Source: Streptomyces violaceorubidus
GTDB lineage: Bacteria > Actinomycetota > Actinomycetes > Streptomycetales > Streptomycetaceae
Direction: 5' to 3'
Length of the DNA: 64,000 nucleotides
Assembly (NCBI RefSeq): GCF_000717995.1
Contig: NZ_JODM01000032.1
Span: 12,841-76,840 of the forward strand
The translations under genes and the position numbers were made by a program. Positions 3,260 through 19,262 of the stretch are shown here, one piece after another. Position 1 is the first letter of the stretch; each line of letters begins with the position of its first letter. The notes beneath the pieces were generated by a model that was not told where the DNA came from, made no database searches, and saw only the letters and a program-made list of their open reading frames with translations.

Positions 3260-3667
3260 GTGGCCGGTGGGATCGAACAGATACGGCTCGACGACGGGAC
3301 GGTCGTCTGGGCCAGGGTGAACGCGTCCGACGACGCGGCGACCGGGGACGGCTTCGAGGACACCGGAGTGCGGGACCGCGTCATCGACATGGCCGGGGGC
3401 CTGGCCGACACGGTCGGCGGTGTCGTGCGCTCCCTGCGCGCCGGACTGGACACCCAGGAGTCCGTCGAGGTCTCCGTCGGCTTCGGCATCGAGCTGTCGG
3501 CGCAGGCCGGCACCGTCGTGGGCGCCATCGCGGGAGGCGGCGGCAACGCCTCGCTGACCGTGTCGTTGACCTGGACCGAACCCGCCCGTCGGGACGGCGC
3601 ACCGCGACCCGGACCGGAAGGCGGTGCCGTTCCTCCGCCCGGACCTCCGGCGTCCGGGGCCGTATGA
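3260..3667 (+). CDS. Trypco1-type (CU044_2847 family) protein
   Basis: 135 residues from GTG 3260. The compact beta-rich N-terminus (IEQIRLDDGTVVWARV), central VESVGFGIELSAQAGTVVG-like segment and ITVSLTW-like strand match the CU044_2847 / Trypsin-co-occurring domain 1 family. That family accompanies trypsin-VMAP proteins in NTP-dependent conflict systems. The C-terminal 35 residues are Pro/Gly-rich. The stop overlaps the next start (ATGA, 3664-3667), so it is translationally coupled to the protease gene. The biochemical role is not known; it is probably an accessory or substrate-recognition subunit. Confidence 0.75.
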   Translation: MAGGIEQIRLDDGTVVWARVNASDDAATGDGFEDTGVRDRVIDMAGGLADTVGGVVRSLRAGLDTQESVEVSVGFGIELSAQAGTVVGAIAGGGGNASLTVSLTWTEPARRDGAPRPGPEGGAVPPPGPPASGAV

Positions 3668-5754
3668 GCGCCCTCGAAGACCTGGTGCGCCCCTCGCTGG
3701 CGCGCATCGTCGCACCGGGTGACGGGTATGCACCGGAGCGTGGCGAGTACTGGGGATCGGGATTCTTCATAGCGCCCGGCTGGCTGTTGACCTGTGCCCA
3801 TGTGGTGGGGAAGGGGGGAGCGGAGGTGTGGCGGAGTCGGAGCCCCGTGGGGGTCACCTGGCAGGGCGGCACCACCACGGGCGAGGTGGTCCTCGCCAAG
3901 CCGAGGCCCGAGCCGGCGCACGCGGGTCGCGGCCGCTGGGAGTTCCCCGACATCGCGCTCGTCCGGGTGCACGGCGCGGACGACGCCCGGTGCGTCTGGC
4001 TGAGCGATCGCGCCCCGACCATCCCCGCCCCGGTCTCCCTGCACGGCTGGTCGCGGCAGACCGGCGCCCTCGGCCTGCGGCACGGCGTCGGTGAGGCGAG
4101 TGGCCGGGACGGCAAGGCCCTGCTGCTCACCGGCGCGCTGCCGGTCGAGGGCCTGTCCGGCGGACCCGTGGTCGACCTGCGCCACGGCTCCGTCATCGCG
4201 ATGAACAAGGGCGTCAGGCAGACCGAGGGGGCCGCCGTCCCGGTGACCGCGCTGCGCGAGCTGCACGACCTCCGCGGGGGCGACATCCTGCACACCGTCA
4301 TGCGCGAGCACGACCTGTACCACCTCGCCCGCTTCAACCGGCCCGGAGCGGACACGGACTGGACGCGGGTCCAGGCCGGGCTGCGCGATCCGGGCGCCCC
4401 CGGCCTCACCCCCGCCCAGCGCCTCCATCTCTACGGCCACCTAGCCCAGTTGCCGCCGCCCAGCGGTCCGGGCGAGATCGCGGACCTCGTGCAGGAGGCC
4501 AAGTCCCGCGTGGTGCAGTCGGACTTCCGCTCGCCCTTCCCCGAGGACCTGCGCACCTGGCGGGAGGGCGCGGCCCTGCTGCACGGGCTGCGCGACCTCG
4601 GCGACAAGGGCGGCAGGCCCGAGCTGGACCTGGACGCCGTACTGCTGTACGCCGCCAAGGTGGCCCGGCACACCGTGCTGGAGCGCCCCGGCGACACCGA
4701 CCCCGAAACGCTGCGGCACTTCACCCGGTGGATCGGGGAGCAGGCGGTCCTGTACGCCCAGCCGGTGATCCGCGAGGACATCGTCCGGCTGCTCGGCGAG
4801 GTGAGCGAGCCGTTCCCCGCCCGGCCCGCCGCTCCCGTCCTCACGCGCGAGAGGTCGCCCCGCACCGGGGCCGACGTCCTCGTCGACATCGGGGAGCCGG
4901 TCTACGGGGAGCGCTACCCGCTGAGCGTGCGCCTCCTGTACGACGGCCGGGACGTCACCCCCCTCTACAGCAACGACCTCGGCGTACGGCGCCACGAACT
5001 CCAGGAGCACCTGAGGGAGCCGCTCGCCGAGGCCCTGCGGCTGGGCGACCGCGGTGAACACCTGGCGGTGATCGAGGCGTTCCTGCCCCGCGCCCTGCTC
5101 GACGAGCCGATAGACGAGTGGCGGCTCGTCCCCGAGGGCGGCGCGGCCGGTGACGGGGGCGAGTACGAGGAGGACGACTTCTTCGACGAGCAGTCCATGC
5201 CGCTCGGACTGCGCCGTACCGTTCTCGTCCGCGACCGCCGCCGCAACGCCAAGGCGCCCATCCCCGAATGGCGCCGGCGCTGGACGGCCACCGCGCGCGG
5301 GCCCCTTGCCGGAATCCCGCTGCGCGGCGAGTCGACGGACACCGGGCACCAGTCGGGAGGGCGCCGGGAGAGCAGACTCGGCACCTTCCGCCGGCTGTCG
5401 GGCAGCGGCGACGGCTGCGTCCCGGTCTTCTGCGGACCTGTGGGAAGCGGCGCCGGGCGGGAGGCCATGGACGTCGCCCTCGCCGCCGGTCACCCCCTGG
5501 TGCTGTGGCGCAGGGACGGCCACGACCACGACGGGTGCCGGGCGTTCCACCGCAGCGCCGCCCGTCTGCTGTCCCTCGCGGGCCGGGCCGAGGGCCTGCA
5601 CGCGCACGTGCGCGACCTGCGCATCGGCGCCTTGGACCCCGAGATCGCCCTGAGCGAGGGGCTCATGGGCAGGATCGCCGTCCTCTACGACCCGCCGGAC
5701 CGTCCGCCGTACGCGTCGGAGATCATGCGACCGCCTCCGCCGGCCGGGCCGTAG
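3664..5754 (+). CDS. Trypsin-like serine protease fused to VMAP-type C-terminus
   Basis: 696 residues. Residues 1-200 form a trypsin-like fold with a complete triad: His46 in LLTCAHVV, Asp96 in FPDIALV and Ser165 in GLSGGPVV. There is no signal peptide, so it acts in the cytoplasm. A helical middle (about 220-395) leads to a C-terminal beta-rich region (about 400-690) resembling the vWA-MoxR-associated protein (VMAP) C-domain. In VMAP ternary systems this subunit is the proposed sensor/effector that works with a MoxR ATPase and a vWA protein, both encoded just downstream. Proteolysis of a target is inferred from the intact triad. Confidence 0.8.
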   Translation: MSALEDLVRPSLARIVAPGDGYAPERGEYWGSGFFIAPGWLLTCAHVVGKGGAEVWRSRSPVGVTWQGGTTTGEVVLAKPRPEPAHAGRGRWEFPDIALVRVHGADDARCVWLSDRAPTIPAPVSLHGWSRQTGALGLRHGVGEASGRDGKALLLTGALPVEGLSGGPVVDLRHGSVIAMNKGVRQTEGAAVPVTALRELHDLRGGDILHTVMREHDLYHLARFNRPGADTDWTRVQAGLRDPGAPGLTPAQRLHLYGHLAQLPPPSGPGEIADLVQEAKSRVVQSDFRSPFPEDLRTWREGAALLHGLRDLGDKGGRPELDLDAVLLYAAKVARHTVLERPGDTDPETLRHFTRWIGEQAVLYAQPVIREDIVRLLGEVSEPFPARPAAPVLTRERSPRTGADVLVDIGEPVYGERYPLSVRLLYDGRDVTPLYSNDLGVRRHELQEHLREPLAEALRLGDRGEHLAVIEAFLPRALLDEPIDEWRLVPEGGAAGDGGEYEEDDFFDEQSMPLGLRRTVLVRDRRRNAKAPIPEWRRRWTATARGPLAGIPLRGESTDTGHQSGGRRESRLGTFRRLSGSGDGCVPVFCGPVGSGAGREAMDVALAAGHPLVLWRRDGHDHDGCRAFHRSAARLLSLAGRAEGLHAHVRDLRIGALDPEIALSEGLMGRIAVLYDPPDRPPYASEIMRPPPPAGP

Positions 5755-5911: not shown

Positions 5912-6997
5912 ATGGTGAACGACTGGCGGATCTACCGCGGAGTGGGTCAGCCGCACGACGGCGTACGGCGGTTACCGGAGCCGCCCCCCTGGCGGGACTT
6001 CACGCGGGCGCAGGACGGCGCACCGGCCGGGTCGCAGGACCCCAGCGGCGCCCGCCGGCTCGGCGTCCGCCGCCGCCGTGCGGAGAACTACGCGCCCCGC
6101 CCCGCCGAGGTCGACGCCGTCAACGCGGCGCTGTACCTGCGCCGCCCGCTCCTCGTCACCGGCAACCCCGGCACCGGGAAGTCCACCCTCGCCTACGCCG
6201 TCGCCCACGAGCTGAAGCTGGGCCGGGTGCTGCGCTGGCCGATCGTCAGCCGGACCACGCTCCAGGACGGTCTGTACCGCTACGACGCGATCGGACGGCT
6301 CCAGGACGTCCAGTTGGAGCGCGCACGCGGCGCCGCGGGCGACGGGAGCGGCGGGAGCGACCGGGGCGACCCCGGCGACGCGGACGGCGGGGACCGCGGG
6401 GACGACGCAGCGGACCGCGCCCCGGGGATCGGGGCGTACATCCGGCTCGGGCCGCTCGGCACCGCGCTGCTGCCTTCCGAACTGCCCCGGGTCCTGCTCA
6501 TCGACGAACTCGACAAGAGCGACCTCGACCTGCCCAACGACCTCCTGAACGTCCTGGAGGAGGGCGAGTTCGCCATCCCCGAGCTGGAACGCGTCGCCGA
6601 CCGCCGGCCCGTGGTCGAGGTGCTGTCGCACGACAGCGGCCGGGTGGCGGTCCACGGCGGGCGGATCGCCTGCACCAACTTCCCGCTGATCGTCCTGACC
6701 TCCAACGGCGAGCGGGACTTCCCCGCGCCGCTGCTGAGGCGCTGCGTCCAACTGGAGCTGGAGCCGCCGGGGGAGGAGCAGCTCACCGCCATGGTCGAGG
6801 CGCACCTCGGCGAGGAGGGGGTCGCCGCGGGACAGGACCTGATCGGCAGGTTCCTCGACCGGGAACCGGGCGAGGTGATGGCCGCGGACCAACTCCTCAA
6901 CGCCCTCTTCCTGACCCAGCACACCCCCCACGCGGAACGGCTCACCCGCGAGCGCATCGCGGACCTGCTCATGCAGCGGCTCGACCGGTCGAGGTGA
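5912..6997 (+). CDS. MoxR-type AAA+ ATPase, contains a TTA codon
   Basis: 361 residues from ATG 5912, preceded by GGAAGGAG. Walker A is GNPGTGKST (about residue 86), Walker B is VLLIDELDKSD, and an arginine-rich sensor follows in PAPLLRRCVQLEL. These are typical of MoxR ATPases, which act as chaperones for vWA partners. A Gly/Asp-rich insert of about 35 residues (around 135-170) interrupts the domain. Codon 21 is TTA (5972-5974), the only in-frame TTA leucine codon I noticed in the window, so translation should depend on the bldA tRNA. The gene lies seven bases upstream of the vWA-like gene. Confidence 0.85.
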   Translation: MVNDWRIYRGVGQPHDGVRRLPEPPPWRDFTRAQDGAPAGSQDPSGARRLGVRRRRAENYAPRPAEVDAVNAALYLRRPLLVTGNPGTGKSTLAYAVAHELKLGRVLRWPIVSRTTLQDGLYRYDAIGRLQDVQLERARGAAGDGSGGSDRGDPGDADGGDRGDDAADRAPGIGAYIRLGPLGTALLPSELPRVLLIDELDKSDLDLPNDLLNVLEEGEFAIPELERVADRRPVVEVLSHDSGRVAVHGGRIACTNFPLIVLTSNGERDFPAPLLRRCVQLELEPPGEEQLTAMVEAHLGEEGVAAGQDLIGRFLDREPGEVMAADQLLNALFLTQHTPHAERLTRERIADLLMQRLDRSR

Positions 6998-7004
6998 GGG
7001 CCCG

Positions 7005-10000
7005 ATGCAGGGGGCGCCGCTGGAGGAGCTGATCGGCCGACTGCGCCGCGCCGGCCTCGACGTCACCGCCGAGGACGTGGCGGACGCCGTCTGGCTCGCC
7101 CGCCGACTCGGCGCGGCACCGCCCCGCGCCGCCGTCGGCCGCCCCGACCCCACCACCGACCCCACCACCGACCCCGACACCGTCACCGACTCGGGCTCCG
7201 ACTCCGAACCGGTCGGCAAGCCGGACGGCGGATCGCCGTCCCCACCGCCACCCGGGCCGTCGGACCCGGCCGGCGGAGACGCTGCGGCACGGCACGATCC
7301 CACCACCCCCGGAACAAGGGCGTCCACCCCGGTCCCGCTGCGGGCCGCGGGCGCCGTCACCGGCCGGGGCGACGGCGGCGGCACCCACGCCACCTTTCCG
7401 GTGCGCGCCCCCGCCGCCACCGCGCTGCCCGGTCTCCTCGGCCTGGAGAAGGCCCTGCGCACCCTGGGCCGCTACCGGGCCACGGGCACCGGGTTCACCG
7501 AAGGCGGCATCGACGAGGAGGCGACCGCCGAGCGTGCCGCCGTCACCGGCTTCGTCCTGCCCGTACGGCGACCGGGCCGCAGCAGGCGGTGCGACATCCG
7601 CCTCCTGATGGACACCGGACCCGCGATGGCCGTGTGGGGACAACTGGTCGAGGAACTGCGCCAGGCCTGTCAGCAGTCGGGGGCCTTCGCCGCCGTCCGG
7701 GTCCACCACCTGTACGCCGACGCCGCCGGGAACCCGGCCATCGGTCCGGCCGCCGGACCCGGCCGTCCGCCGCCGCTGCGCTCGCCGGACGAGCTGCACG
7801 ACCCCTCGGGCCGCTCCGTCACCCTGCTGGTCAGTGACTGCGTGGGCACCCTCTGGCAGAGCGGAGGGGCCCAGCGGCTGCTGCGGGATTGGCCGCGTTC
7901 CTCGCCCCTGGCCATCGTCCAGCCGCTGCCACCGCGCCTGTGGGGCCGTACGGCCCTGCCCGCTGAGCCCGGACTGCTGGTCCGGCCGGCCGACTTCGGC
8001 GGGCGTCTCACCTTCCACCCGGACGACGAGCCGTGGGACGAGCCCGACGCGCCCGCCACGGCCGTACCGGTGCTCCAGCCGACACCCGAGGCGTTCGAGA
8101 CCTGGGCGCGGCTGCTGGCCGGCACCGGACCCACCAGCGAGCGCGCCTGGGCCGCCCGGACGGCGCACCGCCCCGCGCCGCTGGCCCCGGCCGGCACGGT
8201 CGCGCGCGGCGACGACGAACTCGTCCGCGCGTTCCGGGCGACCGCCTCCCCGGGGGCGCTGCGCCTCGCCGTGTACCTGGCCGCCGCCCCCCTGACCCTG
8301 CCCGTCATGCAACTCGTCCAGCGCGCCATGCTCCCCGACACCGGCCCCATGGAACTGGCGGAGGTCCTGCTGGGCGGCCTGCTGCGGCGGTTGCCCGGCA
8401 CGGAGGAACAGCCCTGCTTCACCTACCCGGGCCGGGTGCAGGACCTGCTGCTGTCCACCCTCGACCAGGACACCGCCGGACTGGTCCTCAAGCACTGCTC
8501 GGACTACGTGGAGCGCCGCTTCGGCAAGGGCACCCGCAACTTCGCCGCGCTGGCCGCCGTCCGCCTCGCCGGGCGCGACGCCGGGGCCGCCGACGCCGGT
8601 CCGCTCACGGACGACGACTTCGGGCCGAACGCCGGGGACAGCGCCGAGGCCGAGCTGTTCGCCCGCGTCCCCGCCCGCGTGCTGCGCTTCTACCTGCCCG
8701 ACCTGGTCACGCCCGAGCCCCTGACGGAGGCGGAACGACTGCTCGGCCAGTGGCGGACGCTGGCCGACCCGGACGTGCTGCACCGGGCGCGGGAGCACGC
8801 CGAGGCCGCGGTGCGGGCCGCGACCAGGGCCGACGCCGCCACGGCACCCGACGAGGGCGACGGCGCACGGGCCCGGCTGGTCCTCGGCCGGGTGCTGCGG
8901 GCCGAGGCCGACACGGTGGCGGGCCGGGCGCCCGAGCGCCGGGCGGACCTCCTCGCCGCCGCCACCGAGGAACTGGCCGCGGCCCACCGCGCGGCGCCGG
9001 ACCACAGCCCCGCGCAGGCGCAGGCCGCCCTCGAACTCGCCGCCGGGCTGCACGCGTTGTGGCGCGTCACCGGCGACCCGGCCCACCTCACGGCGGCGCT
9101 CGCCGTCCTGGCCCCCGACGCGCCCCCCTGGCCCGCCGCCGGCCGCCGGGGCACCGCGCCCACGGAGGGCGCCTCCGGCGAGGAACGCCGGCGCGCCGAG
9201 ACCTGGCGGGCCGTGCACCGGGCCCGGCTGCTGCGCCGTGGCCGGTTCCTGCTGGACCTGCGGCGCCACGGCGAGGCCGCCGCCGACCTGCGCCCCGGCT
9301 GCGCCCTGCTGGACGAGTCCGACGCCCCCGCCCGCGTACGCAGCCGGGCCCTGCTCGACCTGGCGCGGGCACTGCGCGGCGCCTCGGCGGACGAGGCGGG
9401 CGAGGAGGCGACCCGGGACGCGCTGCTGCGGGCGGAGCGGGCCGCCGGCGACGACCCCGACCTGCGGCTGCCCTGCCTCGCCGCCCGGGCTGCGTTCCAC
9501 GACACGGCGGGCGAGGCCCAGGAGGCCGACGAGGCGTACGAGACGGCCGTGCTGCTCGCGCCGCCGGAGAGCCTCGTACGCTGCGGCCTCCTCACCTCCT
9601 GGGGCGAGTCGCTGCTGAGCAGGGCCTCCCGGGGGGACGGCGCGCATCTCGTGGACCGCGCGGAGTCCGTCCTGCGGGAGGCCCTCAAGGACCTGCCGGC
9701 CCGTTCCGCGCAGCGCGGCCGGTTGCAGGCGCTCGTGGGCAGCGCCCTCGCCCAGCGCTTCCGGCACCTGGGCTTCCTGCCCGACCTGTTCGAGAGCCGG
9801 CACCTGCTGGGGCAGGCCGTGCGCGCGGCGGCCGACGTGGGCGTACGCGGCGAGGCCTGGCTGCAGCTCGGCCGGGTGCGCCTCGAAGGGTGGTACCGGG
9901 CCGGCGCGCCCGTGCTGTTCGAGGCCCTGCACGCGTACGAGAACGCCGAGCGCGACGCACGGGAGGCGCACCCGGGAGAGCCCGGCTCGGTGACGGTGGC

Positions 10001-10298
10001 GCGGGCCCGGCACGGACGCGGCGCGGTGCTGGTGCTGCTGGGCCGGCCGAGCGCGGCCGGGGCGGCCTACCGGGCGGCGCGGGAGCAGTGGCAGCGGCTC
10101 ACGGGAGCGTTGCGGGAGGTGGACTGGGACGAGGTGCAGCTCACACGGCGGGCGGAGAGCGAAGCGCGGCGCGGGCTCGAGAGCGGGTGGGGCGTGACCG
10201 CGTCCCGGGCCATGAGCGAGGAGGAGTGGAGACGCCTCGCACCGCCGTGGCACGCCTGGGATGAACGGGCCGAGTCGGCCGAGTTTCAGCGCAGTTGA
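7005..10298 (+). CDS. SAV_2336-type protein: N-terminal helical domain, vWA-like core, TPR-like tail
   Basis: 1097 residues. A short helical N-domain (LEELIGRLRRAGLDVTAEDV) is followed by a disordered D/P/T linker. The vWA-like core (about 190-400) starts at CDIRLLMDTGP; its metal site is degenerate, since the DxSxS motif reads DTGPA. The C-terminal half (about 570-1090) is Ala/Leu/Arg-rich helical repeats like TPRs. This matches the SAV_2336 family found next to MoxR and VMAP genes. It is the expected third partner of the ternary system, probably a scaffold loaded by the ATPase. The stop is followed by about 90 bases before the FxsA-like gene. Confidence 0.75.
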   Translation: MQGAPLEELIGRLRRAGLDVTAEDVADAVWLARRLGAAPPRAAVGRPDPTTDPTTDPDTVTDSGSDSEPVGKPDGGSPSPPPPGPSDPAGGDAAARHDPTTPGTRASTPVPLRAAGAVTGRGDGGGTHATFPVRAPAATALPGLLGLEKALRTLGRYRATGTGFTEGGIDEEATAERAAVTGFVLPVRRPGRSRRCDIRLLMDTGPAMAVWGQLVEELRQACQQSGAFAAVRVHHLYADAAGNPAIGPAAGPGRPPPLRSPDELHDPSGRSVTLLVSDCVGTLWQSGGAQRLLRDWPRSSPLAIVQPLPPRLWGRTALPAEPGLLVRPADFGGRLTFHPDDEPWDEPDAPATAVPVLQPTPEAFETWARLLAGTGPTSERAWAARTAHRPAPLAPAGTVARGDDELVRAFRATASPGALRLAVYLAAAPLTLPVMQLVQRAMLPDTGPMELAEVLLGGLLRRLPGTEEQPCFTYPGRVQDLLLSTLDQDTAGLVLKHCSDYVERRFGKGTRNFAALAAVRLAGRDAGAADAGPLTDDDFGPNAGDSAEAELFARVPARVLRFYLPDLVTPEPLTEAERLLGQWRTLADPDVLHRAREHAEAAVRAATRADAATAPDEGDGARARLVLGRVLRAEADTVAGRAPERRADLLAAATEELAAAHRAAPDHSPAQAQAALELAAGLHALWRVTGDPAHLTAALAVLAPDAPPWPAAGRRGTAPTEGASGEERRRAETWRAVHRARLLRRGRFLLDLRRHGEAAADLRPGCALLDESDAPARVRSRALLDLARALRGASADEAGEEATRDALLRAERAAGDDPDLRLPCLAARAAFHDTAGEAQEADEAYETAVLLAPPESLVRCGLLTSWGESLLSRASRGDGAHLVDRAESVLREALKDLPARSAQRGRLQALVGSALAQRFRHLGFLPDLFESRHLLGQAVRAAADVGVRGEAWLQLGRVRLEGWYRAGAPVLFEALHAYENAERDAREAHPGEPGSVTVARARHGRGAVLVLLGRPSAAGAAYRAAREQWQRLTGALREVDWDEVQLTRRAESEARRGLESGWGVTASRAMSEEEWRRLAPPWHAWDERAESAEFQRS

Positions 10299-10387
10299 TC
10301 CAGTCGGGGTTTCTGTTACCGGTCGGTCGGGAAGAACTGGGCAACCGTTGCGACCGTGCGGTGCGGACTTGGGGGGAGGAGCCGAGC

Positions 10388-10672
10388 GTGGCGGAGCAGG
10401 GGAAGGGGACCGCCGTCCCGGGCAGGGGCGCCGGGCGGACCGTGCTGCCGCCCGGGTTGGACGGCGTCGACCTGCGAACCTTGCGTGCCATGGACCGCCC
10501 GGAAGTCCTGGAGGCCGTCGACCGGGTGCTGGCGGGGGCGGCCGGGTCCCGGCAGGTCTGGTACTCCGGCGGCAACGAACCCTCGTCGACCTCGCCCGGC
10601 CCCCGCGCCGAGCCACGTACCTTTTCAGCCGGACCCGACGAGACCGCCCCGATCCGGGCGCTCCGGGAATGA
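10388..10672 (+). CDS. FxsA-like small protein, candidate modified-peptide precursor
   Basis: 94 residues from GTG 10388, chosen because GGAGGAG lies about seven bases upstream. Residues 20-60 (LPPGLDGVDLRTLRAMDRPE then EAVDRVL and VWYSGG) resemble FxSxx-COOH proteins, which typically read GVDLRTLR...VLxxx and end in a short aromatic-x-Ser tail. Here the expected end motif reads W-Y-S-G-G and about 30 further polar residues follow, including TFSAG. The stop overlaps the HExxH gene by ATGA, so the two are coupled. A precursor peptide for that enzyme is the best reading; the resemblance is by eye and from memory. Confidence 0.6.
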   Translation: MAEQGKGTAVPGRGAGRTVLPPGLDGVDLRTLRAMDRPEVLEAVDRVLAGAAGSRQVWYSGGNEPSSTSPGPRAEPRTFSAGPDETAPIRALRE

Positions 10673-11964
10673 CCCGGGCGTCCGTCCCGCCCGAAGTCCT
10701 CACGGCTCTCGCCGGGACGCGGCCCACCCCCGCCGGTACGGAGGCACTGCGCGCCGCGGTCCACGCGCGCCGCATGCTGCTCTTCAAGGCCCTTCTCGTC
10801 CGCGTCGAACGGGAGCACGCCCGTCTGCCCCACCCGGTGCGCCGGGGCTTCGAGGACGACTGGGCGCTGCTGGAGCGCGCCGAGCGGACCGACGCGGGAG
10901 CCGTGCGCGAGGTGCTCGACTACCCGACGACCGGCGCCTGGCTCACCGAGGCGCTCGCCGCGCCGGCCGGACCGGAGTTCGAGGCGCATCTGGCCCATCT
11001 GACCGGAGTCGCCGTCGTCGCCGCGGCCCGCGCGGGCTGCTCGGCCACCGGCACCCTCCGGGTGCCCTCCGGGCTGCTGGGCCTGCCCGGTCTGGGCGTA
11101 CTGCGCTGCCCCTCGGGCCGGGCCCGGGTGGGCGGTAGGGACGGCCGGCTGAGGCTGGTGGAGGCCGCCGGGCACGGCGCCGTCGACCTGCCGCGACGCG
11201 GGACCCGGCCGCAGGACGGGACACTGGAACGGGCCGGTCGCGGATCCGGATCCGGCTGGTCCGCGCTGCGCGCCCTGCCGGGCGGCAGGGCCGTCCTCGA
11301 CGACCTCGACCCCTACCGGGTGCCGCACCCCGGCATAGGCCCCACGGCGGTTCCCGCGGCCGACCGCGCGCACACCGACCACCCGGCGTGGGCCGGACGG
11401 TGGCGTCGGGCCCGGGCCCTGCTGTCGGCGACCGATCAGGGGCGGATCTTTGAGACGGACGCCCTGGTGCACGCCCTGGTGCCGCTCGCCGCGGCGGGAC
11501 GCGCCGGCGGAGTGCCGACGGGGGCCACCGTCCGCTCCGCGCCCGGCGCCGTGCTGACCCAGCTCCCGGCCGGTGCCGCGGAGCTGGCGGAGACACTGGT
11601 CCACGAGACCCACCACACCAAGCTCGCCGCCCTCGACGACTCCGTGCCCCTGTGCCGGCCCGGGGGCGCCCTGCACCGGGTGGCTTGGCGCCCCGACCCG
11701 AGGCCCGCCTCCGCGGTCCTCCAGGGCACCTATGCCCACCTCGCCCTGCTCGACCTGTGGTGGAGGGCGCAACGGGCGTCCGGTGCTCCCGCGACCTGGC
11801 GGCAGCGCGCCGCGGAGCGCTACGGACGGTACCGGGAACAGGTGGGCGAGGCCTTGTCCGTGCTCCGGGGATCCGATGAACTGACCTGTACGGGACGGCA
11901 CTTCGTGGAGGAGATGCACCGGCACCACGCGGACCTCGCAACGGCGGTCGGGAACTCCACATGA
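10669..11964 (+). CDS. Stand-alone HExxH (aKG-HExxH-type) peptide-modification enzyme
   Basis: 431 residues from ATG 10669. The key motif is VHETHHTKL with His312, Glu313 and His316. It occurs in a mostly helical protein with RGFEDDWALLE early and LLDLWWRAQ after the motif. This is the HEXXH domain found fused to, or beside, FxsB-type radical SAM maturases. NCBI now describes this group as alpha-ketoglutarate-dependent HExxH peptide beta-hydroxylases rather than proteases. The neighbouring FxsA-like peptide is its likely substrate. No radical SAM gene accompanies it here. A metalloprotease role cannot be excluded from the motif alone. Confidence 0.7.
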   Translation: MTRASVPPEVLTALAGTRPTPAGTEALRAAVHARRMLLFKALLVRVEREHARLPHPVRRGFEDDWALLERAERTDAGAVREVLDYPTTGAWLTEALAAPAGPEFEAHLAHLTGVAVVAAARAGCSATGTLRVPSGLLGLPGLGVLRCPSGRARVGGRDGRLRLVEAAGHGAVDLPRRGTRPQDGTLERAGRGSGSGWSALRALPGGRAVLDDLDPYRVPHPGIGPTAVPAADRAHTDHPAWAGRWRRARALLSATDQGRIFETDALVHALVPLAAAGRAGGVPTGATVRSAPGAVLTQLPAGAAELAETLVHETHHTKLAALDDSVPLCRPGGALHRVAWRPDPRPASAVLQGTYAHLALLDLWWRAQRASGAPATWRQRAAERYGRYREQVGEALSVLRGSDELTCTGRHFVEEMHRHHADLATAVGNST

Positions 11965-12039
11965 CAGAGCGCACAGCATTGACCTCGGTGCGTTAGCGTG
12001 TGCGCGAGCGCGGCGGACGCGGCGGGAACGGGAGCGGTG

Positions 12040-15039
12040 ATGACGGAACAGCGGCGGTCCGGTGCGGACGGCGCCACGGCGTCCGAGCACATTCTGGTGG
12101 TCTTCCCCGGCTACCACCGTTCGTGGGCGGCGTGGATCGGGCGGTGCCTGGAGCGCCACGGCCACCGCACCACCCTGCAACGCTGGGACCCGCCGCGCGA
12201 GGTCCCCCTGGAGGACTCGTTCGGCGACCTGCTCCTGTCCAGCGGGCGCGTCCTCCTCGTCCTCGACGACTGGTTCTTCGAACTCGGCCCGCGCCCCGCC
12301 GGCGAGTGGAACGACGTGCTGCGCGGCTTCGTCGCCGCGCACGCCGACCGCATCGCGGCCGTCAACCTCACCAACCGCCCGCTCCTGCCGGCCACCGCGG
12401 TCCTGGAACCGGCCAGCCTGTGGGGGATCGGTGAGGACGGCGCCGAGGAGCGGCTGCTCAACCGGCTGGGGCTGAACCGCCTGCGCATCCCGCGTACCCC
12501 GGCCACCCCGGTGCGCTATCCGGACACCCGCTGCGACGTCTGGGGCGAGGTCCCGCACCGCAACCCGCGCTTCACCGGCCGCGACGACCTGCTCACCACC
12601 CTCCACCAGCGCCTCGCCGACGCCGAGCGCGGGGCCGCCGTCTGCACCCTGCTCGGCATGTCCGGCATCGGCAAGACCCAGCTCGCGACCGAGTACGCGC
12701 ACCGTTTCAGCACCGACTACGACGTCGTCTGGTGGGTCAACTCCGACGATCGCAACATCCAGCGCGACCGCTTCGGCGAACTCGCGGTCGAACTCGGGCT
12801 GCGCAGCGGAAGCGAACCGGGCGAACGCATCCGCGCCGTGCGCAACGCGCTGCGCCGCGGCGATCCGCACGCCAAGTGGCTGATCGTCTTCGACGGCTGG
12901 GACGACACCGCGGGCGCCGACACGCTGCTGCCGCAGGGCGCCGGTCACGTCCTGGTGACCTCCCGCAACCGCGGGTGGAGCGAGCGGGCCGACATCCTGG
13001 AGGTCCCGGCCTTCGTGCGCGCCGAGTCCGTCGGCTATCTGATGCGCCGGGCCGCCCACATCACCGCCGCGGAGGCCGACGAGGTCGCCGCCGAGTTCGG
13101 CGACGTACCGCTGCCGCTGGTGCAGGCCGCCTCCTGGCTGGGCGAGTCCCGGATGGAGGTGCCCGAGTACCTGCGGATGGTGCGCGAACGCCGGCTGTCC
13201 ACCGTGGACGAGCCCGTCACCGGCGAGGGGTTCCCGCAGTCCTCCATGACCTCCTGGTCGATACTGCTCAACCGGCTGCGCCGGGCGCAGCCGCAGGCCC
13301 TCGACGTACTCGGGCTGTGCACCTCCTTCGCCCCCGGCCGCATCCCGCTCGGGCTCATCCGCGCCTACCCGCACGCCGACCTCCCCGAGGAGCTGCGGTG
13401 GATGACGGCGGACCTGCCGGCCTGGACGCGGGCCCTGGACACCCTGGTGAACTACTCCGTGCTCACCCGTGAGACCCGGGGACCGGTCGGCGTCGAGATG
13501 GGGCCCCACCAGGAGTCGGTGCACATGCACCGGCTCGTCCACGACATCATCACCAAGCTGATCGGCACGGACAGCCGCGAAACGCACCGCCGGGCCGTAC
13601 GCACCCTGCTCGCCGAGGCCGACCCGGGCAACCCCCTCGACAGCCGGAACTGGCCGCGGTACGCCGAACTGCTGCCGCACCTGGAGCCCTCAGGAGCGTT
13701 CGACAGCACCCGGCCACGCGTCCAGGAGGCGGTCCTCAACAGCCTGCGCTACTGCGTCCGCAGCGGCGAGTACACCACCGGCCTGGCCCTGGCCCAGCGG
13801 ATCCGCGACCGCTGGTCGCAGCTGCTCGCGCCGCTGTCCCAGCCGATGCTCGACCTGACCGCGCAGGAGAGCAACCTCATGCAGGCCGGCGGCCGGTTCC
13901 GCGAGGCGTACGAACTCGACCGGTCCGTGCTGGAGCGGTTGCGGGCCGCGTCCGGCGGCAACACGATCGCCGAGCTGGTCACCCAGGACTCGATGGCCAA
14001 CAGCCTGCGCAGCCTGGGGCGTTACGACGAGGCGTACCGGCTCCAGCAGCAGGTCCTGGACGGCACCGCGGAACTGCTCGGCGCCCACGAGCCCACCACG
14101 CTGCGCGCACGCCACAACCTCGGGGTCAGCCTCCGCCTGCTGGGCAGGTACCGGGACGCCTACGAACTGAACCTGGAGAACCTCGGCACCCGCGAGAGCG
14201 TCCTGCGGGTCCGGCACATCAGCACCCTCAACTCCGCCAGTGCCGTCACGCACGACCTGCGGCTGCTGGGCCGCTACCGTGAGGCGATGGCCCGGCAGGA
14301 ACCGGTGGTCCGACTGCATGTGCAGGTACTCGGCGCACAGCACCCGCAGACCCTGGGCGCCCGCACCCACCTGGTCATGTGCCGCCGCCGCGAGGGCGGG
14401 TACCAGGACGTGGGCCCCTCGATGGAGAGCCTCCTGGAAGAGCTGGCCCAGGTGCACGGCCGCGAGCACTACCGCACCCTCAACTTCATCACCAACTACG
14501 GCAACTACCTGCGCGAGCACGGCGACCTCAGCCACGCCCGCGAGCTCATCGAGGAGGCCGAGGCCGGGTACCGGGCGCTGCTCGGGCCCGCCCATCCCGT
14601 CGCCACCGGCATGCTCGCCAACACCGGGCTGATCATGCAGGCGGCCGGGGAGCGGGCCGAGGCCATGTCCATGTTCGAGTCGGCCCTGGCCGGGCTCACC
14701 GCCACCCTGGGCCCCGACCATCCCTGGGTGCTCGGCTGCGCCCTGTGCGCCACCGGCGCGCGCAACTTCAACGGGCGGATCGCCGACGCGGTGGAACTCG
14801 GCCGGGACACGGTGCGCCGGGCGCAGCGCTCCCTGGGCGGTGAGCACCCCCTGACGCTGTCCTGCCAGGTGGCCCTCGCCGCCGACCTGAGGGCCGTCCG
14901 GGAGCACGAGGAGGCCGGGAAACTGGAGGAGGACGGGCTGCTGGGCCTGACCCGGACGCTGGGCGCGCAGCATCCGCACACCCTCTCCGCCCGCCAGCGC
15001 ACCCGGCCCTACTGGGACTTCGAGCCCTACCTCGGCTGA
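12040..15039 (+). CDS. fxsT: FxsT-type TIR-like / NB-ARC / TPR protein
   Basis: About 999 residues from ATG 12040 (GGGAG upstream; an in-frame GTG at 11998 would add 14). Residues 15-150 look like a diverged TIR domain (HILVVFPGYHRSWAAWI, LLLSSGRVLLVLDDWF). NB-ARC follows: Walker A GMSGIGKTQ, Walker B WLIVFDGWDD, HVLVTSRNRGW, PLPLVQAASWL and an MHD-like VHMHRLVHD. The C-terminal 450 residues are kinesin-light-chain-type TPRs (LGRYDEAYRL, LGRYRDAYEL). This is the architecture of FxSxx-COOH system TPR proteins, STAND NTPases thought to sense and signal. It closes the plus-strand conflict-like block. Confidence 0.85.
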   Translation: MTEQRRSGADGATASEHILVVFPGYHRSWAAWIGRCLERHGHRTTLQRWDPPREVPLEDSFGDLLLSSGRVLLVLDDWFFELGPRPAGEWNDVLRGFVAAHADRIAAVNLTNRPLLPATAVLEPASLWGIGEDGAEERLLNRLGLNRLRIPRTPATPVRYPDTRCDVWGEVPHRNPRFTGRDDLLTTLHQRLADAERGAAVCTLLGMSGIGKTQLATEYAHRFSTDYDVVWWVNSDDRNIQRDRFGELAVELGLRSGSEPGERIRAVRNALRRGDPHAKWLIVFDGWDDTAGADTLLPQGAGHVLVTSRNRGWSERADILEVPAFVRAESVGYLMRRAAHITAAEADEVAAEFGDVPLPLVQAASWLGESRMEVPEYLRMVRERRLSTVDEPVTGEGFPQSSMTSWSILLNRLRRAQPQALDVLGLCTSFAPGRIPLGLIRAYPHADLPEELRWMTADLPAWTRALDTLVNYSVLTRETRGPVGVEMGPHQESVHMHRLVHDIITKLIGTDSRETHRRAVRTLLAEADPGNPLDSRNWPRYAELLPHLEPSGAFDSTRPRVQEAVLNSLRYCVRSGEYTTGLALAQRIRDRWSQLLAPLSQPMLDLTAQESNLMQAGGRFREAYELDRSVLERLRAASGGNTIAELVTQDSMANSLRSLGRYDEAYRLQQQVLDGTAELLGAHEPTTLRARHNLGVSLRLLGRYRDAYELNLENLGTRESVLRVRHISTLNSASAVTHDLRLLGRYREAMARQEPVVRLHVQVLGAQHPQTLGARTHLVMCRRREGGYQDVGPSMESLLEELAQVHGREHYRTLNFITNYGNYLREHGDLSHARELIEEAEAGYRALLGPAHPVATGMLANTGLIMQAAGERAEAMSMFESALAGLTATLGPDHPWVLGCALCATGARNFNGRIADAVELGRDTVRRAQRSLGGEHPLTLSCQVALAADLRAVREHEEAGKLEEDGLLGLTRTLGAQHPHTLSARQRTRPYWDFEPYLG

Positions 15040-15127: not shown

Positions 15128-18100
15128 TCAGGCCTCGAAGACCTCACGCACGAGCTGCTCCTGCTCGGCCTGGTGCCGCTTGGCCGAGCCGACGGCCGGG
15201 GACGAGCCGTGCGGCCGCGAGATGCGGCGCAGGCGCTCGCCGTGCGGGACGTCGGCGCCGACCGCCAGGTCCAGGTGGTCGATCAGGTTGAGCGCGATGA
15301 ACGGCCAGGCACCCTGGTTCGCCGGCTCCTCCTGGGCCCACAGGTACTTCTCGGCGTTCGGGTACTTGGCGATCTCCGCCTGGAGCTCGGCACCCGGCAG
15401 CGGGTACAGGCGCTCGATGCGGATGATCGCCGTGTCCGTCACGCCGCGCTTCTGCCGCTCGGCCTCCAGGTCGTAGTACAGCTTTCCGGCCACGAAGACG
15501 ACCTTGCGGACCGAGGCCGCGTCGACCGCCGAGTCGCCGATGACCGGGCGGAACTGACCCGACGTGAACTCCTCCGTCTTCGACGCGGCGGCCTTCAGAC
15601 GCAGCATCGACTTCGGGGTGAAGACCACCAGCGGCTTGTGGTGCGGGTTGTGCACCTGCCACCGCAGGAGGTGGAAGTAGTTCGACGGCAGGGTCGGCAT
15701 CGCGACCGTCATGTTGTTCTGGGCGCAGAGCTGGAGGAAGCGCTCCACACGCGCGGACGAGTGGTCCGGGCCCTGGCCCTCGTAGCCGTGCGGGAGCAGG
15801 AGCGTGACGCCGGACGTCTGCCCCCACTTCTGCTCGGCCGCCGAGATGTACTCGTCGACCACGGTCTGCGCGCCGTTGACGAAGTCGCCGAACTGCGCCT
15901 CCCACATCACGAGCGCGTCGGGGCGGGCCAGCGAGTAGCCGTACTCGAAGCCCATGACCGCGTACTCGGAGAGCAGGGAGTTGTAGACGTTGTAGCGGGC
16001 CTGGTCCTCGGCGAGGTACTGCAGCGGGGTGTACTCCTCGCCCGTCTCGCGGTTGATGAGGACCGCGTGGCGCTGGCCGAACGTGCCGCGCTGGGAGTCC
16101 TGGCCGGACAGGCGCACCGGGGTGCCCTCGATCAGCAGGGAGCCGACGGCCAGCGTCTCGCCCATGCCCCAGTCGATGGTGCCGTCCTCGACCATCGCCG
16201 CCCGGCGCTGGAGCTGCGGCAGCAGACGCGGGTGGACGTGGAAGGTGTCGGGGATGTTGACCTGGGACTCGGCGATCCGCTTGACGACCTCCGCGGAGAT
16301 CGCGGTGTTCACGGCGACCGGGAACTCCGCCTGCGGGTCCGAGACCGGTCCCGAGGCCGAGGTGGCCGTGACGGCCTCGCGGACCTCGGTGAAGACCTTC
16401 TCCAGCTGGCCCTGGTAGTCCTGGAGCGCCTGCTCGGCCTCTTCCAGGGTGATGTCGCCGCGACCGATGAGGGACTCGGTGTACAGCTTGCGCACCGAAC
16501 GCTTCTTGTCGATCAGGTCGTACATCAGCGGCTGGGTGAAGGCCGGGTTGTCCGACTCGTTGTGACCGCGGCGGCGGTAGCAGATGAGGTCGATCACGAC
16601 GTCCTTGTTGAACGCCTGGCGGAACTCGAAGGCCAGACGGCCCACGCGGACGACGGCCTCGGGGTCGTCGCCGTTCACATGGAAGATCGGCGCCTCGATC
16701 ATGCGGGCCACGTCGGTGGCGTACATCGAGGAACGCGACGACTCGGGCGCCGCGGTGAAGCCGACCTGGTTGTTGATGACGATGTGGACCGTGCCGCCGG
16801 TGCGGTAGCCGCGCAGCTGCGACATGTTCAGGGTCTCGGCCACCACGCCCTGGCCCGCGAAGGCCGCGTCACCGTGCAGGGCGACCGGCAGGACGGTGAA
16901 GTCCGTGCCGCCCTTGTTGATGATGTCCTGCTTGGCGCGGGCGATGCCCTCGATGACCGGGTCGACGGTCTCCAGGTGGGACGGGTTGGCGGCCAGCGAG
17001 ACGGTGATCTGCTCGCCGTCCAGGCCGGTGAAGGTGCCCTGGGCGCCCAGGTGGTACTTCACGTCGCCGGAACCGTGCATCGACTTCGGGTCGAGGTTGC
17101 CCTCGAACTCGCGGAAGATCTGCGCGTACGACTTGCCGACGATGTTCGCCAGGACGTTCAGCCGGCCCCGGTGGGCCATGCCGATGACGACCTCGTCCAG
17201 ACGGGACTCGGCGGCCGAGTCCAGCACCGCGTCGAGCAGCGGGATGACGGACTCGCCGCCCTCCAGGGAGAACCGCTTCTGGCCGACGTACTTGGTCTGG
17301 AGGAAGGTCTCGAAGGCCTCCGCCGCGTTCAGCCGGCGCAGGATGCGCAGCTGCTCCTCGCGCTCCGGCTTGGTGTGCGAGCGCTCGATGCGGTCCTGGA
17401 TCCACTTGCGCTGCTTCGGGTCCTGGATGTGCATGAACTCGACGCCGGTGGTGCGGCAGTACGAGTCGCGCAGCACGCCGAGGATGTCGCGCAGCCTCAT
17501 CAGGGACTTGCCGGCGAAGCCGCCGACCGCGAACTCGCGCTCCAGGTCCCACAGGGTGAGCCCGTGCTCGGTGATGTCCAGGTCGGGGTGCTTGCGCTGC
17601 TGGTACTCCAGCGGGTCGGTGTCGGCCATGACGTGGCCGCGGACCCGGTAGGAGTGGATCAGCTCGAAGACGCGGGCGGCCTTGGTGACGTCGTCGTCGT
17701 GCGAGGCGTCGATGTCCTTGAGCCAGCGGACCGGCTCGTAGGGGATGCGCAGCGCCTTGAAGATCTCGTCGTAGAAGCCGTTCTCGCCGAGCAGCAGGTT
17801 GGCGACCTGGCGCAGGAACTCGCCGGAGGCGGCGCCCTGGATGACCCGGTGGTCGTAGGTCGACGTGAGCGTCATGACCTTCGAGATGCCGAGCTTGTTC
17901 AGGGTGTCCTGGCTGGTGCCCTGGAACTCCGCCGGGTAGTCCATGGAGCCGACGCCCAGGATGACCGACTGGCCGGGCATCAGGCGCGGCACGGAGTGGA
18001 CGGTGCCGAGGCCGCCCGGGTTGGTCAGGGAGACCGTGACGCCGGTGAAGTCGTCCATCGTCAGCTTGTTGTCGCGGGCGCGACGGACGATGTCCTCGTA

Positions 18101-18982
18101 GGCCTGCCAGAACTCGAAGAAGTTCAGCGTCTCGGCCTTCTTGATCGCCGCGACGACCAGCTGGCGGTCGCCGTTGGGCTTGACCAGGTCGATGGCGAGG
18201 CCGAGGTTGATGTGGGCCGGCTTGACCAGGGTCGGCTTGCCGTCCTTCTCGCCGAACGAGTGGTTCATCGACGGCATGGCCTTGATGGCCTGCACCATCG
18301 CGTAGCCGATCAGGTGCGTGAAGGAGATCTTCCCGCCCCGGGCGCGCTTGAGGTGGTTGTTGATGACGATGCGGTTGTCGAACAGCAGCTTCACCGGGAC
18401 CGCGCGCACGGACGTGGCCGTGGGCAGCTCCAGCGAGGCGTTCATGTTCTTCGCGACCGCGGCGGCCGGGCCGCGCAGGGTCACCAGCTCGGGGCCCTCG
18501 GAGGCGGCGCCGGCGTCCTTGGCGGGCGCGGCGGCCTTCGCCTGCGGCGCGGCGGCGGGCTTGGCCGGCGCGGGTGCGGCGGCGGCGGGCTTCGCGGCCG
18601 GGGCGGGCGCGGCCGGAGCGGGTGCGGCCGGAGCGGGTGCGGCGGCGGCGGGTGCGGCGGGCTGCGCGGGAGCGGGAGCCGCCGCCTTCTGCTGGGCCGG
18701 GGCGGGAGCCTGCGCCTGCGGGGCGGGGGCGGCCGGTGGCGTGCTGCCGGAGTCCGTGGTCACCGCGCCGGACGCGGGCTGCGCCGCCGCACCGGGCTTG
18801 TAGTCGGCGAAGAAGTCCCACCAGGCTCGGTCCACGGAGTTCGGGTCCTGGAGGTACTGCTGATAGATCTCGTCGACGAGCCACTCATTGGCACCGAACG
18901 CGGCCGCGGGGTTCTTTCCCGCGGTGCCCGCTTGGTCGGTGTCGGTCGAGATGCTCGAGTTACTGGGGGACTGTGGCGACAC
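15128..18982 (-). CDS. sucA: Multifunctional 2-oxoglutarate dehydrogenase E1/E2 (Kgd type)
   Basis: 1284 residues from GTG 18982 ([15 protein letters not shown] upstream). The order is the actinobacterial one: an N-terminal helix ending [11 protein letters not shown]; an Ala/Pro-rich linker (about 60-150); an acyltransferase catalytic domain without lipoyl domain, with [14 protein letters not shown]; then the thiamine-diphosphate E1 domains with GDAAFAGQG and NNQVGFT. It decarboxylates 2-oxoglutarate and passes the succinyl group on in the TCA-cycle complex. Related enzymes are inhibited by the FHA protein GarA/OdhI. Its stop faces fxsT across a hairpin. Synteny with the sensor kinase pair and lon supports the core-chromosome assignment. 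Confidence 0.95.
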
Positions 18983-19262
18983 GGCGAGAACCGCCCTCTT
19001 CCGCTTCACAAGATGGTGGACAGCGGGAATCAAGGCTACGCCTACCGGCACCGGAAGGTCAGGCTGGGCCCGTTCATCGTCGCGTAAGTCACATCACAGA
19101 CCGCGTTTCGGCGCTGGAAATGGCGGGAAACAAGCGAGGTTCTGCTGCGTGAGGGATCGGGAGACCGGGGCCCGGCGCCTCGAAAAGGCGGGCCCGTGCC
19201 TGATCACACGTGCCCGCCAGCGCGGATGCAGTGGATCTTGACGCTCCGCTTCGAACCCTACG

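Follow-up and report, generated by a model that had tools for sequence, protein, structure and literature searches.

A stand-alone HExxH enzyme and its FxsA-like precursor in an FxsB-less branch of a Streptomyces conflict system

Introduction

What might be made from an FxsA-like precursor whose gene overlaps that of a stand-alone HExxH enzyme, when the radical SAM maturase FxsB is missing? The question is raised by a locus of Streptomyces violaceorubidus, analysed here within a 64-kb stretch of DNA (the window, by which the whole stretch is meant). Cyclophane formation and hydroxylation are coupled in fused and in FxsB-linked systems. A branch that keeps the leader, the hydroxylase and the TIR-STAND partner, with neither FxsB nor the FxSxx end, is a natural experiment, and such a two-protein system would let the action of alphaKG-HExxH enzymes on a linear peptide be asked about. 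Peptide control of a TIR-NB-ARC-TPR protein is a link proposed from gene neighbourhoods in the VMAP section of Kaur et al. (2020; PMC7159879), and literature searches found no study of the present precursor/HExxH pair.

Results

The pair within a six-gene system

The precursor ORF (94 aa, 10388..10672, forward strand like the five other genes of the set) has a GTG start with GGAGGAG just 5' of it. It overlaps the 431-aa HExxH ORF (10669..11964) by ATGA, in which the precursor's TGA and the enzyme's ATG meet. The first-pass annotation had missed that the two genes lie within a six-gene conflict system, a context in view of which we rejected an isolated RiPP cluster. Upstream are the genes of a VMAP protein (3664..5754) with an N-terminal trypsin-like peptidase (PF13365, 4.3e-13) and a C-terminal VMAP-C domain (PF20028, 1.2e-37), of an AAA ATPase (5912..6997; PF07728 AAA_5, 1.8e-7), and of a SAV_2336-type protein (7005..10298; SAV_2336 N-terminal model NF041121, 437 bits, cut-off 200). 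The ATPase is labelled the MoxR component from its gene position, and scored 53 bits with the MadB family ATPase model, far under the cut-off of 475; the SAV_2336-type product, with zero Pfam matches, is likewise a presumed vWA component from gene position only. Downstream lies a TIR/NB-ARC/TPR gene (11998..15039), whose product matched the model of the FxSxx-COOH system TPR protein (NF040586, 771 bits, cut-off 300) as well as Pfam TIR_2, NB-ARC and TPR.

This six-gene set is the VMAP-ternary layout described in the VMAP section of Kaur et al. (PMC7159879). Of the components of its FxSxx type, the locus has the VMAP-C protein, the MoxR-type ATPase (subtype by position) and the separate downstream TIR-AP-ATPase-TPR gene, and lacks the radical SAM-SPASM gene, no FxsB being found over the cut-off in the genome. 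The RxD and acidic peptide types were rejected, as the AP-ATPase is separate (11998..15039) and the precursor has neither RxD nor four contiguous acidic residues. PADLOC gave weak matches alone on the locus (IetA at about 19 bits, RT-Protease_XI at 20 bits). In the N-terminal TIR region of 11998..15039 the usual catalytic Glu seemingly does not stand at its expected place after the Trp, so this TIR may not be an NADase. The convergent gene on the reverse strand (15128..19051) reads like a 2-oxoglutarate dehydrogenase/decarboxylase-type protein, which we take to be probably a housekeeping gene at the border.

The HExxH enzyme

By sequence the enzyme is assigned to the alphaKG-HExxH peptide beta-hydroxylase family (TIGR04267, 133.9 bits, cut-off 40), with hydroxylation as its predicted activity, and the annotation of a stand-alone, overlapping HExxH enzyme was borne out. 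The motif is intact (H312-E313-T-H-H316), and both it and a later histidine, H357, are invariant in 35/35 aligned sequences. The fold matches those of SjiH and ChlH, so that fold and motif both agree with the family; H357, a candidate third iron ligand, also agrees with the SjiH sequence, ChlH aligning differently at that position. With the NCBI 'inactivated' model the enzyme scored 90.6 bits, below the cut-off of 225.

The precursor

The precursor had been annotated as FxsA-like, and its leader upholds this: it matched the FxSxx-COOH model TIGR04268 at 18 bits, under the cut-off of 28, and the leaders of sister clusters are related. Since the match is confined to residues 24-55 (profile positions 3-34 of 44), the leader is the part that is matched. 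AlphaFold2 placed two confident leader helices at residues 29-35 and 38-60, and predicted the tail to be disordered (pLDDT about 43-51 there; mean 61.8). The conserved Trp is Trp58. Around the Trp the sequence reads ...VWYSGGNEP..., and it ends in ...APIRALRE. The annotation had likened W-Y-S-G-G to a terminal FxSxx motif followed by about 30 extra residues; extra residues there are, 36 beyond the Trp, but WYSGG is an offset resemblance, as neither a C-terminal FxSxx nor F-x-S itself occurs in the window precursor. A frameshifted FxSxx end is argued against by the ATGA overlap and by the varied frames in relatives.

The tail (10562..10669) differs from the leader at the DNA level too. Leader codons are typical (G+C by position 0.83/0.57/0.95, against 0.81/0.61/0.90 in the HExxH gene), while those after the Trp are flatter (0.67/0.72/0.81). 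In 13 long-tailed members, pN/pS was 0.63 from leader to Trp, 1.20 after the Trp and 1.16 before the leader. High G+C and saturation influence these values, of which only the contrast is informative. The tail is thus not conserved as protein, which the annotation had overlooked.

Relatives with and without FxsB

A homologue search with the precursor returned five clusters, one of them containing the window's own protein. Loci were typed by similarity to the window genes (14 Streptomyces loci and 40 further genome stretches), and FxsB-bearing clusters were fetched and typed afterwards. Where complete, the latter read VMAP-MoxR-SAV_2336-precursor-FxsB-HExxH-TIR/NB-ARC/TPR; the gene order of the FxsB-less branch is the same minus FxsB, and the precursor, enzyme and TIR/NB-ARC/TPR genes stay together in related Streptomyces.

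The HExxH tree comprised 84 rows; L081, L084, L110 and L116, exact copies of other rows, were dropped, and the short loci L017-L076 were excluded save L017, L018 and L020. Of the 31 rows in which FxsB is missing and the TPR gene is separate, 29 fell into one branch (100/100), so the homologous pairs without FxsB for which the annotation had advised a search do exist. The sister branch (98/89) held 24 FxsB-bearing rows together with the two remaining FxsB-less rows, L103 and L148, and with L114, L115 and L141. L103 and L148 were left out of the FxsB-less clade because they lie at contig ends, with the FxsB side not visible, and were placed in the FxsB-bearing branch. Around the HExxH genes of L114, L115 and L141 the fetched stretch shows neither FxsB nor a TPR gene, and the tie to FxsB is thus not absolute. 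One further FxsB-less block (L150, genome G051) was typed only once the tree and the element counts given below were complete, and is included in neither.

A leader-bearing ORF precedes the enzyme gene in 28 of the 30 loci of the FxsB-less clade, the remaining two (L083 and L105) being contig ends. With the homologue clusters, this recurrence goes beyond chance. In all 28 precursors a leader resembling LPDLTDVDLRTLRxMDDP is retained, as is one Trp (the final search pattern demanded Trp, the same ORFs having been identified earlier without it), and none has an FxSxx end; in L016 an F-R-S occurs within the tail and is not terminal. In the FxsB-bearing loci a precursor was read in 23 of 24 (none in L142). 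A count by eye gave F or Y in the terminal motif of every one of the 23: it is F-x-S in 11, F-x-N in 8, Y-x-S in 1 and of another form in 3. It is preceded by W-x, mostly LWGF, in 17 and reads N-A-F in six. The Trp of the window's precursor aligns by eye with that of the ...LWGFNxxF end found in those 17 relatives.

After the Trp, the FxsB-less precursors run on for between 4 (L090, WNDGP) and 59 residues (L098). Such lengths, together with a tail pN/pS of about 1.2, would suit an enzyme that cleaves the precursor instead of, or besides, hydroxylating it: the backbone would be cut near the Trp, oxidatively or by hydrolysis, and the tail discarded. This reading merges the metallopeptidase proposal of Kaur et al., in whose VMAP section a peptidase releases a C-terminal peptide (PMC7159879), with newer chemistry: as described in part of PMC12636437, PflC and PosC hydroxylate Gln and oxidatively remove a C-terminal tetrapeptide, and PflC also hydrolyses a truncated substrate. 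A conserved motif for cutting after the Trp was not found, however, and unconstrained tails would also result from a plain lack of function; we regard cleavage as a serious but rather unlikely alternative. The limitation of constraint to the leader-to-Trp stretch, beyond which C-termini diverge freely, would also be expected if the precursor no longer yielded a modified peptide and its leader served the HExxH or the TIR-STAND protein as a protein ligand or as a regulator, the enzyme's catalysis being vestigial. The invariant HExxH and H357 and the failure to reach the 'inactivated' model speak against this, and we consider it improbable.

A second HExxH class was also seen (16 loci: L077-L079, L082, L085, L087, L088, L091-L093, L097, L099, L100, L106, L146 and L147), with no FxsB in the fetched stretch and with a larger gene adjoining that resembles a fused TPR/AP-ATPase. 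When these loci were read for RxD, acidic and FxS ends, RxD near a plausible leader was found in two, L077 and L079.

FxsB in the host genome and in the genus

In the host genome (7.65 Mb, 282 contigs, 100% complete), one HExxH match was found and no FxsB (TIGR04269) over the cut-off of 370 bits; the single FxsB match covers 124 of the 363 positions and scores 27.5 bits. The lack of a radical SAM maturase, claimed for the window, thus extends genome-wide for the FxsB family, which is what the search covered. As to the proposed absence of a cyclophane, the missing FxsB makes an FxsB-type ring unlikely; a non-FxsB radical SAM enzyme encoded elsewhere in the genome could act on the precursor.

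In the genus, 121 genomes were sampled. A HExxH protein over the cut-off is encoded by 96 of them and an FxsB by 76; 31 of the 96 are without an FxsB over the cut-off (two lists compared by hand). The window enzyme's clade occurs in 20 of the 121, by 19 matches of at least 213 bits and, in G119, by a 68%-identical fragment. In G119 (L105) the HExxH gene is fragmented over two contigs and one of the fragments contains a stop, whether by assembly fault or decay. The pair is hence not the uncommon type it had been called; it belongs to a Streptomyces branch, common and conserved, of an already known type of system. In five clade genomes (G004, G025, G033, G041 and G085) FxsB is present, either on a different contig or at a distance of over 1 Mb, as might be expected if a radical SAM or other enzyme from elsewhere finished an ordinary cyclophane peptide. 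In the other 15, among them the window's, no FxsB exceeds the cut-off, and the FxSxx end is missing from every one of the 28 precursors, which leaves such a distant ring-former very improbable.

Two DNA elements around the precursor

Two DNA elements mark most FxsB-less clusters. E1 (GTTTC-N12-18-CGGGAA; 10307..10346, forward strand) was found in 27/27 FxsB-less and 3/22 FxsB-bearing loci, and E2 (TTTYCRGYCRG; 10622..10633, forward strand) in 21/27 and 1/22; for each, about 0.02 loci were expected in shuffles. E1 ends 42 bp 5' of the precursor start and E2 begins 47 bp 5' of the HExxH start. With up to 2 mismatches allowed, the long form of E1, GTCGGGAAGAASTGGGCARCC, has a single genomic occurrence, which is weak evidence because a reversed control pattern also occurs once. 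E2 is absent from L080, L089, L090, L094, L098 and L108, and L150 has no match either. By eye the two elements are alike (GTTTCYGGTC-like), and in L086 E1 stands twice, about 170 bp apart, just 3' of the SAV_2336 gene, as if the promoter region were duplicated. E1 and E2 are probably regulatory sites, possibly promoters or regulator sites.

In its 21 loci E2 falls within the precursor ORF in 14 and past the ORF stop in 7. A conserved tail string, TFSAG, overlies it. Thus the 'extra 30 residues' are most readily taken for the product of an ORF that extends across a cis element, and not for core peptide.

Discussion

The reading we favour, at somewhat better than even confidence, is that the two genes form the module that processes the peptide in the VMAP-ternary conflict system of an FxsB-less Streptomyces branch, the predicted product being a hydroxylated, ring-free peptide. 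The helical leader would dock on the HExxH enzyme, which, using Fe(II), O2 and alpha-ketoglutarate, would hydroxylate an uncyclised segment, either at the conserved Trp or directly behind it; the target might be a nearby Asp, Glu, Asn or Ser, or the Trp itself. No cyclophane would be formed, and residues after the core would be a dispensable follower. The oxidised peptide, perhaps trimmed, may then be sensed by or arm the TIR/NB-ARC/TPR protein on a trigger from VMAP/MoxR/SAV_2336. Counting against this explanation, the sequence after the Trp is highly variable and no single target residue stands out. Hydroxylation and cleavage may also be combined: the enzyme would oxidise the uncyclised Trp-proximal core and cut the backbone behind it, discarding the free-evolving tail and leaving a linear oxidised signal that switches on the TIR-STAND protein. 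We think this a long shot; if true, it would be a one-enzyme hydroxylated-peptide alarm within a bacterial conflict system.

Among the VMAP peptide types in the corresponding section of Kaur et al. (PMC7159879), a radical SAM gene is named for the FxSxx type only, which implies lone precursor/HExxH pairs in the others; FtsH-associated systems have a different radical SAM gene. That section describes no FxsB-less cluster with the layout of the FxSxx type.

Known systems resemble the window's pair in part. ChlH (PDB 8s5f) and SjiH (22nu/22ob) share the enzyme's fold and HExxH motif, but ChlH, unlike the window enzyme, belongs to a protein in which radical SAM and HExxH are fused, and its substrate is a cyclophane peptide; it reportedly depends on a cyclophane already in place (part of PMC12636437), so activity on a linear peptide is not to be assumed. 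Passages of PMC13060819 have PesO hydroxylating Pro, and BpmH is proposed for biphenomycin in part of PMC12257519. PflC/PosC (part of PMC12636437) and PesO resemble the window's pair in combining a tested HExxH enzyme with a precursor in a cluster for which no radical SAM is listed; they differ in belonging to MNIO-containing RiPP clusters and not to conflict systems. The RxD and acidic types in Kaur's VMAP section (PMC7159879) likewise pair a precursor with a HExxH-type protein in a VMAP-ternary system, but their AP-ATPase is fused to the vWA protein. Closest are the FxsB-bearing VMAP-ternary FxSxx clusters (that section of PMC7159879; sister loci among L117-L145), which share the gene order, a related leader and, in 17/23, the Trp, and differ in having FxsB between precursor and HExxH and F/Y-x-S/N near the precursor end (20/23).
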